From NCBI RefSeq assembly GCF_013426975.1, contig NZ_JACCPY010000005.1, forward strand, positions 62,001-126,000: a stretch of DNA of 64,000 bases. The letters are read 5' to 3'. Below the pieces are notes generated by a model that ran no database searches, was not told the DNA's origin, and saw only the letters and a list, made by a program, of their open reading frames with translations. The first letter of the stretch is position 1. Each line of letters opens with the position of its first letter. The stretch is from Sphaerotilus sulfidivorans (GTDB taxonomy: Bacteria; Pseudomonadota; Gammaproteobacteria; Burkholderiales; Burkholderiaceae_C). Below, in pieces: positions 9,124-21,572 of the stretch. The position numbers and the translations under genes are program-made.

Positions 9124-10251
9124 GTGACCCTCGCCTCCCCCGCCCTGCGCAGCCTGGCGCGCTTCAGCGTGATCGCCTCGACGCTGATGGCGCTGGCGCT
9201 CGCCTGGCTCTACCACTTCGCGCCGCGTCATCTGGCGCTGGTCGAGCTGACCCGCTATGCGCCCTTCCTGATCTATCTGGTGCCGGGGCTGACCGCCCTG
9301 GCGCTGTCCTGGCTGCTGGCGCCGCTGTGGCGCGTCATCGCCGCGCTGACACTGACGCTGATGCTGACCGCGGTGATGGATGTCTCCACCGGCCTGAGAA
9401 GCGATCCGCTGCCGTCCGATGCCGCGGCGGCCGGCGTGCGGCCGGTGCGGCTGATGACCTACAACATCAAGTCCTACCGGGCCGCCTTCCGCTGGGGCGG
9501 CTTCGTGCCGCTGAACAACGAGATCGCCTCGCAGCAGCCCGACATCCTGGTGATGCAGGACGCCCGCGAGGTCTCCCGCGCCGGCGACCTGCCCTTCGGC
9601 ATGCGCGAGGTGCTGCCCCAGCACAAGCTCTACGCCTACGGCCAGTACGCGATCGCCAGCCGCTTTCCGCTGTCGGACTGCCGGCGCGGCGACATCTCCT
9701 TCCGCGGCGAGAAGCACGAGTACATCCGCTGCACCGTCGACATCGGCGGCACGCTGGTCGACGTGATCACCGCCCATCTGCTGACCCCGCGCGCCGGCCT
9801 GAACGCCGCCCGCTTCGAGCTGCACCAGGGCCTGGACGACTGGAATCACAATGTCGCCGACCGCATGACCCAGGTCGATGCGCTGGTGCGCGATCTGGTG
9901 CCGCTGCGCCGTCCGACCATCCTCGCCGGCGACCTGAACGCGCCCGAGCACTCGCCGGTGGTGCGCACGCTGATGGCGACCGGCCTGCGCAACGCCTTCT
10001 CCACCGCCGGCCGTGGCTGGGGCTACACGCACGGCCATTCGCTCAAGCCCTGGGTGAGCTTCCTGCGCATCGACCACATCCTGGTCAGCCCGGAGATCGG
10101 CGTGACCTCGGCGCATGTCGGCTGGCGGGGTGGCTCCGAGCACCGCCCGGTCATCGCCGATCTGCTGGTGCCGGTGCGCCAGGGCCTGCGCCAACCTGTG
10201 GACAAGTCTGTGGATAAGCCTGTGGACAAGTCTTCAGGCAAGTCGAAGTGA
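9124..10251 (+). CDS. Membrane-anchored endonuclease/exonuclease/phosphatase-family protein
   Basis: GTG at 9124 is preceded by GGAG with 8 bases of spacing and gives 375 residues; ATGs at 9034 and 9061 are alternatives. Three hydrophobic segments (about 12-30, 46-67, 69-87) anchor the protein, then an EEP domain follows with LMTYNIKSY, AGDLNAPEHS, FLRIDHILVS and SEHRPVIADL, which supply the metal and catalytic residues. The family includes nucleases, phosphodiesterases and sphingomyelinases; the substrate is unknown. The last 18 residues (PVDKSVDKPVDKSSGKSK) are encoded by three tandem 12-bp DnaA-box-like repeats. The stop overlaps the start of the next gene as GTGA. Confidence 0.85.
   Translation: MTLASPALRSLARFSVIASTLMALALAWLYHFAPRHLALVELTRYAPFLIYLVPGLTALALSWLLAPLWRVIAALTLTLMLTAVMDVSTGLRSDPLPSDAAAAGVRPVRLMTYNIKSYRAAFRWGGFVPLNNEIASQQPDILVMQDAREVSRAGDLPFGMREVLPQHKLYAYGQYAIASRFPLSDCRRGDISFRGEKHEYIRCTVDIGGTLVDVITAHLLTPRAGLNAARFELHQGLDDWNHNVADRMTQVDALVRDLVPLRRPTILAGDLNAPEHSPVVRTLMATGLRNAFSTAGRGWGYTHGHSLKPWVSFLRIDHILVSPEIGVTSAHVGWRGGSEHRPVIADLLVPVRQGLRQPVDKSVDKPVDKSSGKSK
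10197..10229 (+). repeat. Three tandem 12-bp DnaA-box-like repeats inside a gene
   Basis: TGTGGACAA (10197), TGTGGATAA (10209) and TGTGGACAA (10221) lie at an exact 12-bp period, each inside CCTGTGGAYAAG-like context. They are read in frame as V-D-K three times at the end of the EEP hydrolase. The middle copy equals the reverse complement of the consensus DnaA box TTATCCACA. Confidence 0.9.
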
Positions 10252-11216
10252 GCCGCCCTCGCCCCGACTGGACGCCGCCGATGCGCGACGGCGTCGGTGC
10301 CAGCCGCGTGGCGGTGCAGCCGGGCGCGGGGCGCACGGTGCTCGAGTTTCTCTGCGCCCGGCTGCCCGCGCTGGATGCCGCCGCCTGGCGCGCCCGCCTG
10401 GACGCCGGCGAGGTGCTGGCCGCCGATGGCCGGCCTGTGGACAAGTCCGAGCCCTGTGGACAACACCGGCTGCTCTGGTACTGGCGTCGCCTCGACGCGC
10501 CCGAGCCGCAGGTGCCCTTCGACGAAATCATCCTGCACCGCGACGAGCGGCTGCTGGTGGTCGACAAGCCGCATTTCCTGCCGATGACGCCCAAGGGCCG
10601 CCATCTGCACGAGACGCTGCTGGTGCGGCTGAAGAAGGCCACCGGGCTGGAAACGCTGGTGCCGCTGCACCGGCTCGACCGCGAGACCGCCGGCGTGGTG
10701 CTGTTCTCGCTCGATCCGGCCAGCCGCGGCGTCTACCAGGCGCTGTTCCGCGACCGCTCGATCGAGAAGGTCTACGAGGCGGTCGCGCCCTGGCGCGAGG
10801 CGCTGGGCACGACGCTGCCGCGCCTGCACGCCAGCCGCCTGGCCGAGCGCGAGGGCGAACGCTTCATGCAGATGCACGAGGTGCCGGGCGAGCCCGACGC
10901 CTTCACCCGCATCGCGCTGATGGAGCGCAACGCCGCCAGCGGCCTAGCGCGCTACCGGCTCGAGCCGCTGACCGGGCGCAAGCACCAGCTGCGCGCGCAC
11001 CTGGCCGCGCTGGGCGTGCCGATCGTCGGCGACCGCATCTATCCAGTGCTGCAGCCCGAGCCGGCGCCGGACGCGCCGCCCGACTGGCGCGAGCCGCTGC
11101 GCCTGCTCGCGCGCGAGATCGCCTTCGTCGATCCGCTCGACGGCCGCACGCGGCGCTTCGCCAGCACGCGCCGGCTGTCGCTGCACGCCCCAGGCATCAA
11201 CCCAGCGACGGCTTGA
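10248..11216 (+). CDS. RluA-family pseudouridine synthase
   Basis: The 322-residue protein has the RluA catalytic motif HRLDRETAGVVLF, with Asp144 as the expected catalytic residue, and the later ARYRLEPLTGRKHQLRAHLA motif of the family. It converts uridine to pseudouridine in rRNA or tRNA; the target base is not deducible. GTG 10248 overlaps the TGA of the preceding gene (GTGA), so the two are probably translationally coupled. Two DnaA-box-like repeats at 10436 and 10455 fall in the N-terminal region and are read as PVDKS and CGQ, in two different frames, apparently as a tolerated insertion before the catalytic domain. The 3' end overlaps the converging ROK gene by 20 nt. Confidence 0.9.
   Translation: MSRPRPDWTPPMRDGVGASRVAVQPGAGRTVLEFLCARLPALDAAAWRARLDAGEVLAADGRPVDKSEPCGQHRLLWYWRRLDAPEPQVPFDEIILHRDERLLVVDKPHFLPMTPKGRHLHETLLVRLKKATGLETLVPLHRLDRETAGVVLFSLDPASRGVYQALFRDRSIEKVYEAVAPWREALGTTLPRLHASRLAEREGERFMQMHEVPGEPDAFTRIALMERNAASGLARYRLEPLTGRKHQLRAHLAALGVPIVGDRIYPVLQPEPAPDAPPDWREPLRLLAREIAFVDPLDGRTRRFASTRRLSLHAPGINPATA
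10436..10463 (+). repeat. Pair of DnaA-box-like TGTGGACAA repeats
   Basis: Two exact TGTGGACAA copies start at 10436 and 10455, both inside the pseudouridine synthase gene and read in different frames (V-D-K and C-G-Q). Confidence 0.85.
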
Positions 11217-14224: not shown

Positions 14225-15196
14225 TTACAGCACCCCCGATCCGGCTGCCGGCCCGTCGGCCTGCGGCATCACGCCGTCACCGAGAAGCAGGTCGCGGCAC
14301 TGTTGCGCAGCTTGCGCATCCAGCCGCCCCGCCTGCGCAGCCAGCGCGACCTGCGGCAGCGCCAGCCGGCGGTAGAAGTCGAGCGGATCGTGCGACGACG
14401 GCGCCAGCGCCTGCAGCGCCGCCAGGTGGGTGCGCAGCACGCCGGTGTCGCCGCGCGCGATCGGCCCGGACACCGCGCCGGCCAGGCCGCGGCCCTCGAC
14501 CGCATCGAGCGTGCCGCGCGCCAGCGGCAGCAGCGCCGCCAGCGCCTGGGCCTCGTCGACGCCGAAGGTTTTCCACAGGCTCGTCGCCTCGGCCAGCACC
14601 GGCAGCAGGAAGCTGGCGGCATAGCCGGCGGCGACGTGGTAGCGCGCCCGCATGCCCGGCGGCAGCACGATCGGGCGCAGGCCCAGCACCGCGGCCAGCG
14701 CCTGCAGCGCTTCGGCCAGCGCGCTGCCGGCCTCGGCCTCGATCGCCACCGTGCTGCCCGCCAGTCGATCGGCCGCACGCAGCGGATCCGAGAAGATCTG
14801 CAGCGGATGAAAGCCGCCGGTGGCCGCGCCCGCCCGCGCCGCACCCGCCAGCGCCGCGACCTCGGTGGCGCCGCTGCAGTGCACCACCGCCTGCCCGGGG
14901 CGCCAATGCAGCGCCTCGGTGCAGCTCGCGATGTGATCGTCGGGCACCGTCAGCAGCACCAGCCCGGCCTGGTCGACCGCCGCCTGTGGATAACTCGGCT
15001 GTGGACAACTTTCCGGCCAGCCCGGACCGAGTGCCTGGCGCCGACTGCCGATGGCCGCCACCGCCATGCCGCGGCGTGCCAGCGCGATCGCCAGCGCCTG
15101 CGCGACCCGGCCGGCGCCCACCAGCACGATCGGGGGCAGCACACGAGCGGCGTGGCCTGTGGATAAGTCCGTGGAAAGGGGGAGGCTTGCGTTCAT
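14225..15196 (-). CDS. Rossmann-fold DUF2520-domain oxidoreductase-like protein
   Basis: The 323-residue product begins with a nucleotide-binding motif (VLVGAGRVAQALAIALARRG, residues ~25-45) and continues with a dinucleotide-binding fold (VLLTVPDDHIASC, VVHCSGATEV, GGFHPLQIFSD) and a helical C-terminal DUF2520 domain (YHVAAGYAASFLLPVLAEA). The family resembles F420H2:NADP oxidoreductase/ProC-like enzymes; substrate unknown. ATG 15196 lies 25 bp from the divergent MazG-like start. DnaA-box-like repeats occur inside the gene at 14985, 15000 and 15158, encoding the peptides SCPQPSYPQ and DLSTG, with a one-mismatch copy at 14569. These lie in the N-terminal loop and between the first strands, so they look like tolerated insertions. 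Confidence 0.85.
   Translation of the reverse strand: MNASLPLSTDLSTGHAARVLPPIVLVGAGRVAQALAIALARRGMAVAAIGSRRQALGPGWPESCPQPSYPQAAVDQAGLVLLTVPDDHIASCTEALHWRPGQAVVHCSGATEVAALAGAARAGAATGGFHPLQIFSDPLRAADRLAGSTVAIEAEAGSALAEALQALAAVLGLRPIVLPPGMRARYHVAAGYAASFLLPVLAEATSLWKTFGVDEAQALAALLPLARGTLDAVEGRGLAGAVSGPIARGDTGVLRTHLAALQALAPSSHDPLDFYRRLALPQVALAAQAGRLDAQAAQQCRDLLLGDGVMPQADGPAAGSGVL
14985..15008 (+). repeat. Pair of DnaA-box-like repeats in DUF2520 gene
   Basis: TGTGGATAA (14985) and TGTGGACAA (15000) lie 15 bp apart inside the gene on the opposite strand, which reads them as YPQ and CPQ. A third exact copy, TGTGGATAA, is at 15158 near the start codon. Confidence 0.85.
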
Positions 15197-15221
15197 GGCG
15201 CCATCATGCACACTGGCCCGC

Positions 15222-15605
15222 ATGGATATCCACAGCCTGCAGACCCGCCTGCGCGCCTTCTCCGCCGAACGCGGCTGGGAGCCGTACCAGAACCCCAAGA
15301 ACCTCGCGATGGCGATGGTGGTCGAGGCCGCCGAGCTGGTCGAGATCTTCCAGTGGCTCAGCCCCGAGCAGGCGGCCGACATCGCCGCCGATGCCGCGCG
15401 CCAGCAGCATGTCGGCGAGGAGATCGCCGATGTTCTTGTCTATCTGCTGCAGATCGCTGATCGTTGCGGCATCGACCTCGAGGCGGCGGTCGAACGCAAG
15501 ATCGGGCTGAACGCGCTCAAGTATCCGGTGCCGAGTTCTCCACAGCCCGCCCCGACCGATTCCGGAGTTGCCGATGCCCCGTCCCCCGAGCCCCGTGCCG
15601 ACTGA
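15222..15605 (+). CDS. MazG-like nucleotide pyrophosphohydrolase
   Basis: The 127-residue product starts MDIHSLQTRLRAF and has the all-alpha NTP pyrophosphatase pattern: VVEAAELVEIFQWL gives the first ExxE metal site (Glu35 and Glu38) and GEEIADVLVYLLQIADRCGIDL gives the second acidic ExxxD helix. RS21-C6/MazG relatives hydrolyse non-canonical or excess (d)NTPs to monophosphate and pyrophosphate. The start codon region includes ATATCCACA, one mismatch from a DnaA box. The 3' end overlaps the 2OG oxygenase gene by about 32 nt, so the two are probably co-transcribed. The divergent DUF2520 gene starts 25 bp away, which leaves little room for separate promoters. Confidence 0.88.
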   Translation: MDIHSLQTRLRAFSAERGWEPYQNPKNLAMAMVVEAAELVEIFQWLSPEQAADIAADAARQQHVGEEIADVLVYLLQIADRCGIDLEAAVERKIGLNALKYPVPSSPQPAPTDSGVADAPSPEPRAD

Positions 15606-16467
15606 GTTGTCCACAGCCGCGCCGCAGGTGGCGGTGATCGACTGGCGCGCCGCCGATGCGCCGGCCCGATTTGTCCACAGCCTGCTGCACACCGGCTTCG
15701 CGGTGCTGACCCATCACCCGATCGACACCGCGCTGCTGCGCCGGATCGAGGCCGAGTGGGACCCCTGGCTGGCCTCGCCGGCTGTGGACAACTGTCGCTT
15801 CGACCCGCTGACCCAGGACGGCTATGTCGGCCCGGAGCGTTCCGAGACCGCCAAGGGCCAGACCGAGAAGGACCTGAAGGCCTTCTTCCACCACTATCCC
15901 GGTGGACGTTATCCCCAGGAGCTGTCCGACGCCGCGCTGCGCTACCGCGCGCAGGCCGAGGCGCTGGCGGCGCAGCTGCTCGACTGGGTGCAGACGCACG
16001 CGCCCGAGGCGGCGCGCAGGAGTTTTCCACAGCCGCTGCCGGAGATGATCGCCGGCAGCCGGCAGACCCTGCTGCGCATCCTGCGCTATCCGCCGCTGCG
16101 CGGCGACGAGCCGGCCGGTGCGATGCGCGCGGCCGCGCATGAGGACATCAATCTGCTCACCGTGCTGCCCGCCGCGCGCGAGCCGGGCCTGCAGGTGCTC
16201 GGCCGCGACGGCCTGTGGCGCGACGTGCCCGGCGATGCCGGCTGGCTGGTGATCAACACCGGCGACATGCTGCAGGAGGCCAGCGGCGGCGTGTTTCCGT
16301 CGACCACCCACCGCGTCGCCCGGCCGGTCGGCGAGGCGGCGCGGCGGGCACGCATGGCGATGCCGCTGTTCCTGCATCCGCGCCCGGAGGTGCGGCTGTC
16401 GGCACGCCACACTGCCGCCAGCTACCTCGACGAGCGGCTGCGCGAGCTCGGTCTCAGAGCGCCCTGA
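15574..16467 (+). CDS. 2-oxoglutarate/Fe(II)-dependent oxygenase, isopenicillin-N-synthase type
   Basis: The 297-residue product has the jelly-roll dioxygenase motifs: AAAHEDINLLTVL gives the HxD pair (His189 and Asp191), STTHRVARPV gives the distal His246 and the 2OG-binding Arg, and an N-terminal DIOX_N-like region is present (ARFVHSLLHTGFAVLTHHP). Substrates in this group range widely, so none is proposed. ATG 15574 follows GGAG (15563-15566) by 7 bases; TTG 15568 is an alternative. Exact DnaA-box-like repeats at 15607, 15671 and 15783 and a one-mismatch copy at 16023 fall within the gene and are read in different frames (ELSTA, FVHS, VDN). The 3' end overlaps the converging Pat-like gene by 14 nt. 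Confidence 0.88.
   Translation: MPRPPSPVPTELSTAAPQVAVIDWRAADAPARFVHSLLHTGFAVLTHHPIDTALLRRIEAEWDPWLASPAVDNCRFDPLTQDGYVGPERSETAKGQTEKDLKAFFHHYPGGRYPQELSDAALRYRAQAEALAAQLLDWVQTHAPEAARRSFPQPLPEMIAGSRQTLLRILRYPPLRGDEPAGAMRAAAHEDINLLTVLPAAREPGLQVLGRDGLWRDVPGDAGWLVINTGDMLQEASGGVFPSTTHRVARPVGEAARRARMAMPLFLHPRPEVRLSARHTAASYLDERLRELGLRAP
15607..15791. repeat. Three DnaA-box-like repeats in the oxygenase gene
   Basis: TTGTCCACA starts at 15607 and at 15671, and TGTGGACAA at 15783. All lie within the N-terminal third of the oxygenase gene and are read in two different phases and both orientations. Confidence 0.8.
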
Positions 16468-19255: not shown

Positions 19256-19285
19256 AGTTGTCCACAGGCCAGCCTGTGGACAACT
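19256..19285. repeat. Perfect 30-bp palindrome of two DnaA-box-like repeats
   Basis: TTGTCCACA (19258) and TGTGGACAA (19275) face each other in a perfect inverted repeat with 14-bp arms AGTTGTCCACAGGC and GCCTGTGGACAACT around CA. It is intergenic, between the Pat-like gene start and the terminator after LivJ. Confidence 0.85.
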
Positions 19286-19399: not shown

Positions 19400-20542
19400 T
19401 CAGCGCACCACCGCGATCTGCTCGCGGTTGCCGCCCTTGTAGGTGAACATCGTCAGCGCACCGTTCTTGATGTCGCCCTTCTCGTCGAAGGTGATCGTGC
19501 CGGTCACGCCCTTGTAGCCCGTCGTCTTGGCCAGCACCGGCAGGTACTTGACCGGATCGCTCGAGCCGGCCTTCTCCATCGCCGCCACCAGCACGTTCAC
19601 CGAGTCGTACACATACGGCGCGTAGATCTGCACGTCGGCGTTGAACTTCGTCTTGAAGCGGGCCTTGAACTCGTCCATGCCCTTCTTCTGCTCGCCTTCG
19701 ACACCGCCGGCCTCGGCGCACACCACCTGGCTGTCGTCCATCGCGCCGCCCGACAGCTTGGGCAGCTCGCCCGAGCAGATGCCGTCGCCGCCCATGAACT
19801 TCGCCTTGATGCCCAGCTGCTTCATCTGGCGGATCATCGGGCCCGCCACCGCGTCCATGCCGCCGAAGAACACGATGTCCGGCTTCTTCGCCTTCAGGTT
19901 GGTCAGGATCGCGGTGAAGTCCGTCGCCTTGTCGTTGGTGAACTCGCGCGCCACCGTCTTGCCGCCTGCGGCCTTCACGCCCTTCTCGAACTCGTCGGCC
20001 ACGCCCTGGCCGTAGGCGGTGCGGTCATCGATCACCGCGATCGACTTGCCCTTGAGCTGCGTCACCGCGTACTTGCCCAGCGTGCCGCCCAGATGCACGT
20101 CGTCCGCCACCAGACGGAAGGTCGTCTTGAAGCCCTGGCGGGTGTACTTCGGGTTCGTCGCCGACGGCGACACCTGCGGAATGCCCGCGTCGCTGTAGAT
20201 CTTCGACGCCGGGATCGAGGTGCCCGAGTTCAGGTGGCCCACCACGCCGGCGACCTTCGAGTCCACCAGCTTCTGGGCTGCGGCCGTGCCCTGCTTCGGA
20301 TCGCCACCGTCGTCCTCGGCCAGCAGCTCGAACTTCACCTTCTTGCCGCCGATCGTCACGCCCTTGGCATTGAGCTCGTCCACGGCCATGCGCGCGCCGT
20401 TCTCGTTGTCCTTGCCCAGGTGCGCGATGCCGCCGCTCGTCGGGCCCACATGGCCGATCTTGACCACTTCCTGGGCCGAGGCAGTGCCTGCGGTAGCCAG
20501 CAGCGCCAGGCCAGCGAGAGCGACATTGAGCTTGTGATTCAT
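19400..20542 (-). CDS. Branched-chain amino acid ABC transporter substrate-binding protein, LivJ family
   Basis: The 380-residue product has a signal peptide (MNHKLNVALAGLALLATAGTASAQ) and the periplasmic Leu/Ile/Val-binding fold, with GHVGPTSGGIAHLGKDNENGARMAVDELN, DDGGDPKQGTAAAQKLV, NSGTSIPASKIYSDAGIPQVSPSATNP and DDRTAYGQGV. It captures branched-chain amino acids or related ligands for a Liv-type importer. No permease or ATPase genes are adjacent, so it must work with components elsewhere. A strong terminator follows. Its upstream gap is the 610-bp region with an origin-like arrangement, so the promoter of this gene may lie in or beside it. Confidence 0.93.
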   Translation of the reverse strand: MNHKLNVALAGLALLATAGTASAQEVVKIGHVGPTSGGIAHLGKDNENGARMAVDELNAKGVTIGGKKVKFELLAEDDGGDPKQGTAAAQKLVDSKVAGVVGHLNSGTSIPASKIYSDAGIPQVSPSATNPKYTRQGFKTTFRLVADDVHLGGTLGKYAVTQLKGKSIAVIDDRTAYGQGVADEFEKGVKAAGGKTVAREFTNDKATDFTAILTNLKAKKPDIVFFGGMDAVAGPMIRQMKQLGIKAKFMGGDGICSGELPKLSGGAMDDSQVVCAEAGGVEGEQKKGMDEFKARFKTKFNADVQIYAPYVYDSVNVLVAAMEKAGSSDPVKYLPVLAKTTGYKGVTGTITFDEKGDIKNGALTMFTYKGGNREQIAVVR

Positions 20543-20748
20543 CTGGAAGTCTCCGCGAAAGAAGTGAAGCGAGAAACGTGAGTTGGAGCCCGTGTGCTTT
20601 CAAGATGTGTGCCAGCCATCTGCCTGTGCCATGGGCTCGGCCGTGTCCAGTCCTCTTTCCTCAAGACCTGTCTTTGGCTGTTCCTGGATGTTCTGGCTCT
20701 TCCGGGGATGCCGCCACGCTCTTCCTTCCCGATCTTCTCCCCGAAAAA

Positions 20749-21070
20749 GTTATCCCTGTCTTCTTATGTATTTATAAGTAGTACATAGTAGTAGAGGGCG
20801 CTCTTTTCTGTGGAGAACTCATGTTTTCCTTTTGAAATCAACGACTTGAGTCATGGATAACTCTGTGGAGGACCCTGGGGATTGCGGTGGACAGAAAGAG
20901 AGCAACTTCGGAAGGCCCCGTGTTTTCCCGAGTTGTTCATGTGCTGTCCCCTGCTTGCTCACAGACTTGTCCCCAGGCTGGGGCATGAACCGCTGATGTG
21001 CGTGAGACATCTCACGAATCTGCCATTTCAGGAAAGTTGTCCACAGCTTTTTATCCACAGCGGTGGACAA
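20749..21070. other. Candidate replication-origin-like element
   Basis: Read on the minus strand, a DnaA-box-like TTCTCCACA (20817-20809) is followed by a GC-containing spacer (20808-20795), a run of CTA-type trinucleotides CTACTACTATGTACTACTT (20794-20776) and an AT-rich stretch (20775-20760). This order, box then GC spacer then DnaA-trio then AT-rich duplex, matches the basal unwinding system known from Bacillus subtilis oriC. Toward the SET gene the region holds TTGTCCCCA (20967, one mismatch), TTGTCCACA (21037), the consensus box TTATCCACA (21051) and GGTGGACAA (21062, one mismatch). No dnaA, dnaN, gyrB, parAB or rnpA gene is in the window, so chromosomal-origin identity is inference. Confidence 0.5.
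21037..21070. repeat. Cluster of three DnaA-box-like sites
   Basis: TTGTCCACA at 21037, TTATCCACA (perfect consensus) at 21051 and GGTGGACAA (one mismatch, reverse orientation) at 21062 lie within 34 bp upstream of the SET gene. Confidence 0.85.
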
Positions 21071-21152
21071 CTCGGCCTGCAGCTCGCCTGAGGGCCGGCG
21101 GGCCGGTCGGCTACCCGTACCATCGCGGCTTCAGTCGATCGGGGAACCGTCC

Positions 21153-21572
21153 ATGGGCAAGCCTGCCAACCCTCAGAAGTACGCCGTCATCAATGCCCCG
21201 AGCCGGATCGATGGCACCGGCGCCTTTGCCGCCGAACCGATCCCACCGGGACGCAAGATCGGCGAGATCCGGGGTGAGGCCATCAGCGTCCAGGAAGCCC
21301 GCGAACGGGTGAAGAACGTCGATCGCATCATGATGGTGGAGATTTCCGACCGGAAGGCGATCGATGCCTCAAGATCGCTCGATCCGCTGCGCTTCACGAA
21401 CCACTGCTGCCGCCCCAATGCGGTGCTTCGCATCCGTCAGGGGCGGGTCGAGATCCATTCGATGCGACAGATCGAAGAGGGCGACGAGATCACCTGCGAC
21501 TATGGCGAGACGCACCACGAGGGCGGGATGACCTGCCACTGCGGCGTGCCCGGCTGTGTGGGCAAGCTGTGA
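21153..21572 (+). CDS. SET-domain protein
   Basis: The 139-residue protein is a minimal SET domain. GTGAFAAEPIPPGRKIGEIRG resembles the N-terminal SET strand, RFTNHCCRPNAVLR the NHSCxPN-type motif and EEGDEITCDYG the catalytic Tyr region, followed by a Cys-rich post-SET-like end (CHCGVPGCVG). Eukaryotic relatives are lysine methyltransferases; small bacterial SET proteins are thought to methylate proteins but few are characterised. ATG 21153 is chosen because the SET fold begins within 20 residues; an upstream frame to 21063 would start inside a DnaA-box repeat. No clear Shine-Dalgarno is seen. It lies alone beside the origin-like region. Confidence 0.85.
   Translation: MGKPANPQKYAVINAPSRIDGTGAFAAEPIPPGRKIGEIRGEAISVQEARERVKNVDRIMMVEISDRKAIDASRSLDPLRFTNHCCRPNAVLRIRQGRVEIHSMRQIEEGDEITCDYGETHHEGGMTCHCGVPGCVGKL

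Follow-up and report, generated by a model that had tools for sequence, protein, structure and literature searches.

The locus considered here raises the question of whether an intergenic region that carries DnaA boxes, trinucleotide repeats, and an AT-rich stretch, on a contig that lacks dnaA, is an origin of replication and, if so, of which replicon. The window, i.e., the whole stretch of 64,000 nucleotides that was analyzed, covers positions 62001-126000 of C101, a 235-kb contig of a 4.39-Mb draft genome in 126 contigs (G000). The initial annotation had offered three options: a dnaA-distal chromosomal origin, an origin of another replicon, or an origin-like regulatory site. The first fits best, as judged from the GC skew of this genome and of two relatives (G008 and G308) and from conservation of the unwinding module. 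We put the probability that the 611-bp region between livK (our own label for a periplasmic binding protein gene) and a SET-domain gene is the oriC of the main chromosome, situated away from dnaA, at about 0.92.

A putative unwinding module between livK and a SET-domain gene

The features of the region and its flanks, in window positions, are as follows.

20543..21153, no strand assigned: candidate oriC, livK/SET intergenic region, 611 bp; the GC-skew minimum of the contig is at window position 21247
19400-20542, minus strand: flanking livK-type periplasmic binding protein gene, with its start at 20542
ATG at 21154, plus strand: flanking SET-domain protein gene
20809..20817, minus strand: proximal DnaA box of the module, TTCTCCACA, with 1 mismatch relative to TTATCCACA
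20795..20808, minus strand: spacer GAAAAGAGCGCCCT, 14 nt, GC-containing, with CT at its end; the 14-nt spacing recurs in the family
20776..20794, minus strand: DnaA-trio run CTACTACTATGTACTACTT, three trios in register and more shifted by one base
20749..20775, minus strand: AT-rich stretch adjoining the trios, candidate DUE (first-melting region); 31% GC for 20749-20796 and 18% for 20765-20781, against 70% for the window
21037..21045, plus strand: distal DnaA box TTGTCCACA
21051..21059, plus strand: distal DnaA box TTATCCACA, perfect consensus
21062..21070, minus strand: distal DnaA box TTGTCCACC, inverted (GGTGGACAA as read forward)

The region holds both a cluster of DnaA boxes, with the three distal ones spanning 34 bp, and an AT-rich unwinding element. 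The initial annotation had described a DnaA box, a GC spacer, CTA trios, and an AT-rich stretch on the minus strand, and all of these lie where it placed them; its far-side boxes, including a perfect consensus within 34 bp, were located at 21037-21070, and the intergenic region that it gave as 610 bp measured 611 bp. GC content within the window is lowest elsewhere, at about 160-250 (20% over 50 bp), in a part of the contig with 62% GC.

The unwinding system of B. subtilis, the BUS, is defined in the available text of PMC8287927 by a box with no more than 2 mismatches to TTATCCACA, a spacer of 0-16 bp between the box and the first trio, and at least three consecutive trios with a central A (3'-NAN-5'). 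The module described here has 1 mismatch in TTCTCCACA, a spacer of 14 nt, and CTA CTA CTA in register, and in these sequence features it agrees with the definition. The order of parts, the three in-register trios, and a distal box group like that in incC are shared with B. subtilis as portrayed in the accessible portions of PMC6669920, which describes the BUS and a distal box group, and of PMC8287927. The spacer given there has a limit of 16 and a peak at about 10-13, compared with the 14 found here. Unlike the B. subtilis BUS, the module is not beside dnaA, one strong proximal box was noted, the 14-nt spacing recurs across the family, and several members have two or three modules.

The pattern CACA-N14-CTACTACT has a single exact copy in the 4.39-Mb genome. 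A looser form of the motif (up to 2 mismatches) matched twice in the window where 0.56 matches were expected, a count that was reached in 8 of 100 shuffles; the loose motif alone is thus not significant, and the case rests on conservation and skew. A BLASTN search with the region matched 10 of 40 genomes, its own included, and 6 of 12 congeners. The trio-box block lay within the match in 8 of the 9 matching relatives, the match in G028 being elsewhere. The six congeners that had no BLASTN match weigh against the site; among these, G009 has modules by pattern search, and pattern searches of G003 and G011 gave no exact module. The initial annotation had named conservation as a check, and it was borne out: in an alignment of seven genomes of the genus Leptothrix TAGTAGTAGAGG is invariant, and the box beside it varies yet stays within 1 mismatch of TTATCCACA or TTGTCCACA, and the module recurs in the family. 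Matches to livK, SET, and FadD occur in identical order on contig C1 of G001 and on NZ_JABSNM010000001.1 (Leptothrix sp. C29).

Across the family, CACA-N14-CTACTACT matched 66 of 299 genomes compared with about 51 for a reversed control (counted by eye). Raw counts of this 12-base pattern are weak evidence, and because they barely exceed the control, we rely on box, flank, and spacing instead. When a pass was taken to be a box with no more than 1 mismatch and a flank of no more than 45% GC, the 30 family loci that were fetched, with 36 pattern hits among them, gave 28 passes and 8 failures, and the spacer ends in CT in 23 of the 28 that passed. With the gap left free (4-24), 85 of 200 genomes matched, and the reversed control matched more often than the pattern. 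The 141 matches listed in that search collapsed to 116 when identical 19-letter starts were merged, between genomes too, and the commonest gap was 14 (32 matches); among those listed with a gap of at least 14, CTA or TTA stood exactly 14 nt past CCACA in 66 of 86. A stricter pattern searched across the order matched 4 of 250 genomes, all of them among the 7 from the family, and its control had 0 hits. The matches listed from all bacteria include Acidovorax, Hydrogenophaga, Variovorax, Paracidovorax, and Macromonas, whose family we take to be of the Comamonadaceae type; matches outside the family in the search of all phyla are probably mostly chance.

Some genomes have two or three matches to the module pattern, at spacings of 0.4-29 kb across genomes. 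Contig C1 of G016 has matches at 40.1, 49.3, and 69.4 kb, and multiple matches also occur in G015, G022, G112, G165, G169, G213, G234, G252, G287, and G320; second copies were read in context in G015, G112, G165, G213, G234, and G287. Judging from these sequences, multiple modules suggest bipartite or redundant origins.

Position relative to GC skew, dnaA, and parS

Cumulative GC skew, a check that the initial annotation had proposed, places the global minimum of C101 at contig position 83,247 (window 21,247), where the skew switches from negative to positive, 0.2-0.5 kb from the module and box region. None of 5000 permutations matched the change point at 83 kb. Sampling of G008, a member of the same genus, in 20-kb stretches gave negative skew without exception in the 21 that start between 20 kb and 1.76 Mb, the surroundings of dnaA (1.326 Mb) included. 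Skew was positive in 9 of the 10 stretches that follow (1.78-2.44 Mb); the last 9 samples (2.66-4.60 Mb) were mixed, with 3 positive and 6 negative. In a contiguous 160-kb scan of G008 the skew reaches its minimum at 1,777,468, the change point falls at 1,781 kb, and the module lies at 1,785.7 kb, so that the turn lies no more than 8.3 kb from the homologous site while dnaA is 460 kb off. In G308, from another genus, a 400-kb scan found the minimum at 3,172,067, no more than 0.2 kb from a module; this genome has a module at 3,172.2 kb (a CTATTACTAC variant; CTATTAC) and, at 3,175.5 kb, a second one that matches exactly, and dnaA is at 3,340.7 kb (165 kb away). The skew of G099 is negative before dnaA, mixed between dnaA and the module, and positive in the five stretches past the module's own, to 0.82 Mb. 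G009, of the same genus as the window, is contrary: its modules are at 4,753.8 and 4,754.2 kb, and the skew drops until about 4.89 Mb and turns near dnaA (position 0). Either a recent rearrangement or a moved origin may account for a minimum nearer dnaA than the module pair. In all, three of the five genomes (the window's own, G008, and G308) support the site, and in these the outcome that the initial annotation had named as a refutation, a skew minimum elsewhere such as at dnaA, did not occur; G009 speaks against the site, and G099 is mixed.

The initial annotation had found no dnaA in the window. The gene is on a separate contig, C121, at 20.9-21.4 kb; C101, which continues for 82 kb or more in both directions from the site, lacks it. 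C101 does carry, beyond the window, mnmG, rsmG, and a gene for a ParA-type ATPase at 11.6-15.7 kb, which is 67-71 kb from the site, and no ParB was recognized beside parA among six proteins scanned at that locus. Where a checked module (a box with no more than 1 mismatch and an AT-rich flank) shares a contig with dnaA, the two are 15-460 kb apart in 16 of 16 genomes (G008, G009, G015, G016, G022, G046, G099, G112, G141, G165, G174, G252, G287, G308, G314, and G320). Six genomes with the pattern alone (G147, G216, G251, G281, G297, and G319) were left out of this set, and module and dnaA are on different contigs in G000, G213, and G305.

An origin at dnaA itself was considered and rejected, as no trio run was found in the DNA fetched around dnaA from nine family genomes (G000 and 8 others). 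The fetched dnaA DNA of G016, G009, and G030 starts at contig position 1 and is missing the upstream side; the DNA upstream of dnaA in G009, checked separately, had no trio run. Among three dnaA loci from other families, those of G030 and G038 carry TACTATTA as a short run, with no box placed at the module spacing. The most AT-rich 50-mer around dnaA of G000 has 40% GC, versus 26% at the module region, and the 172-kb contig C121 had no skew turn in a change-point test (p 0.70). Inspection of the sequence by eye placed an rpmH-like gene beside dnaA on C121, and just past that gene, at C121:23,111-23,210, is a DnaA-box-like run of GTGGATAA/GTGGAAAA repeats.

Sites of the parS type (GTTNCACGTGNAAC) were found in 19 of 20 genomes searched, the exception being the window's own, which has no exact GTTNCACGTGNAAC even though a parA-type gene and mnmG are on C101. 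Of the genomes searched, 13 have a checked module, and in every one of them parS lies closer to the module (7-163 kb) than to dnaA. Another pattern, TTCCACGTGGAA, matched in 3 of 14 genomes, and GTTNCACGTGNAAC was used for the counts reported. A parS-like core, TTTCACGTGAAA, occurs within mnmG at C101:13,259 and is the sole such core on C101 and C121.

Other explanations of the site must be weighed against a main-chromosome origin. It is improbable, in our view, that the true oriC is at dnaA-rpmH on C121, with the site described here serving to bind DnaA for regulation or titration and an old inversion accounting for the switch in skew. Such an arrangement would accord with dnaA being the usual neighbor of oriC, with the presence of TTATCCACA and TTGTCCACA between dnaA and the rpmH-like gene and of more boxes beyond, and with the skew minimum of G009, but it is at odds with the DNA around dnaA, where there was no trio run and no 50 bp below 40% GC, with the lack of a skew turn on C121 and the renewed coincidence of module and minimum in G008 and G308, and with the nearness of parS to the module in 13 of 13 genomes.

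Many Burkholderiales carry secondary replicons, and in a draft of 126 contigs C101 might belong to a chromid or megaplasmid whose origin this is. We consider this very improbable, given that no plasmid Rep was present among eight neighboring proteins scanned and that the homologous site of G008 is on a 4.83-Mb contig that also bears dnaA; and with mnmG, rsmG, and a parA-type gene on C101, the origin of another replicon that the initial annotation had allowed for is unlikely. Least probable of all is that the region has no origin function and serves livK and the SET gene as a promoter region under DnaA control. The skew minimum falls here, and 30 family loci have no livK/SET match in their fetched flanks, yet most have the module, which weighs more against a promoter than the divergent orientation of the two genes and the likewise conserved block before the SET start weigh for it.

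DnaA boxes beyond the module

C101 makes up 5.4% of the genome and holds 36 of its 51 copies of TTRTCCACA, compared with 2.7 expected (binomial p ~3e-34, with clustered boxes treated as independent). All but one of the 36 lie between 7.6 and 146 kb of the contig, and the module is at 82.8 kb. The members of this halo of boxes within the window include the following.

10197..10463, minus strand: halo DnaA-box cluster, 5 TTRTCCACA, no module match
14985..15791, no strand assigned: halo DnaA-box cluster, 6 TTRTCCACA, no module match
19258..19283, no strand assigned: halo pair of inverted TTGTCCACA boxes

Further clusters of TTATCCACA and TTGTCCACA are found outside the window at 7.6-34.3 kb and 142.8-145.8 kb of C101, with boxes often 11-15 bp apart. 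Because C101 has one module match only, the clusters on it lack a module. A crude ORF caller placed 28 of the 36 halo boxes within ORFs, although GTG starts are supplied by GTGGACAA itself. In G008, 30 of 70 TTRTCCACA are within 160 kb around the module, and weaker excesses near modules are seen in G015 (7 of 33 boxes) and G016 (9 of 44).

An accumulation of DnaA boxes near the origin is also reported for E. coli, and the available portion of PMC12371093 interprets it as favoring titration. By simple count the excess described here is steeper than that in E. coli (PMC12371093, as far as its available text goes), with 36 of 51 TTRTCCACA on 5.4% of the genome, although the motif sets counted differ. 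A bolder proposal, which we offer tentatively and hold to be doubtful, is that oriC has been uncoupled from dnaA family-wide and that initiation in Leptothrix is buffered in cis by the strong, module-free halo clusters, which lie up to about 75 kb from the origin and would be duplicated soon after it fires, as an extreme natural case of DnaA titration.

A predicted origin of ordinary mechanism away from dnaA

If the livK/SET region is the oriC of the main chromosome, DnaA would occupy the three distal boxes (21037-21070) as well as the module's own box (20809-20817). A filament that starts at the module's box would then extend past the 14-nt spacer to the trios in single-stranded form (20776-20794) and stretch the trio strand such that the AT-rich stretch (20749-20775) opens. 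The helicase may then be loaded at the opened stretch, and two forks would start. The sequence parts, with their conservation, spacing, and placement relative to the skew switch, to dnaA, and (in relatives) to parS, are observed here; the binding of DnaA, the growth of its filament, the opening of the strands, and the loading of the helicase are modeled on work in B. subtilis and other species. In our view the site is very probably a true origin of the chromosome, with an ordinary mechanism but an unexpected location. The unwinding mechanism is already known; the newer and more interesting parts are the family-wide displacement and the dense DnaA-box halo.

Chromosomal origins that are separated from dnaA occur in E. 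coli and Caulobacter. The candidate origin resembles these in being dnaA-distal and differs in its neighbors, its trio modules, and the parS sites 7-163 kb off in 13 relatives. The origin of Burkholderia cenocepacia chromosome 1, as described in the available text of PMC4948915, likewise has DnaA boxes, an AT-rich block, and parS near the origin; its exact position is called uncertain there, and the likeness drawn here is by description and not by sequence. We found no description of a dnaA-distal origin for this family in the literature, and DoriC may list one.

Genome records are often opened at dnaA, with origins assumed to be there, and the records of several complete relatives start at this gene. 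In SkewDB (PMC8941118, in its available part), dnaA is no more than 5% from the skew origin in over 80% of chromosomes. A margin of 5% of a chromosome is coarse and would take in many of the distances between module and dnaA found here. If the module marks the origin, placing the origin at dnaA would miss it by tens to hundreds of kb in this family, and a displaced origin would affect coverage-based estimates of growth rate, skew analyses, and replicon design. The lineage is not among the species assayed in the portion of PMC8287927 available. A displaced trio module with a 14-nt spacer in one to three copies per genome may offer natural variation for testing the BUS model, and the halo of DnaA boxes may serve as a natural test of DnaA titration models.
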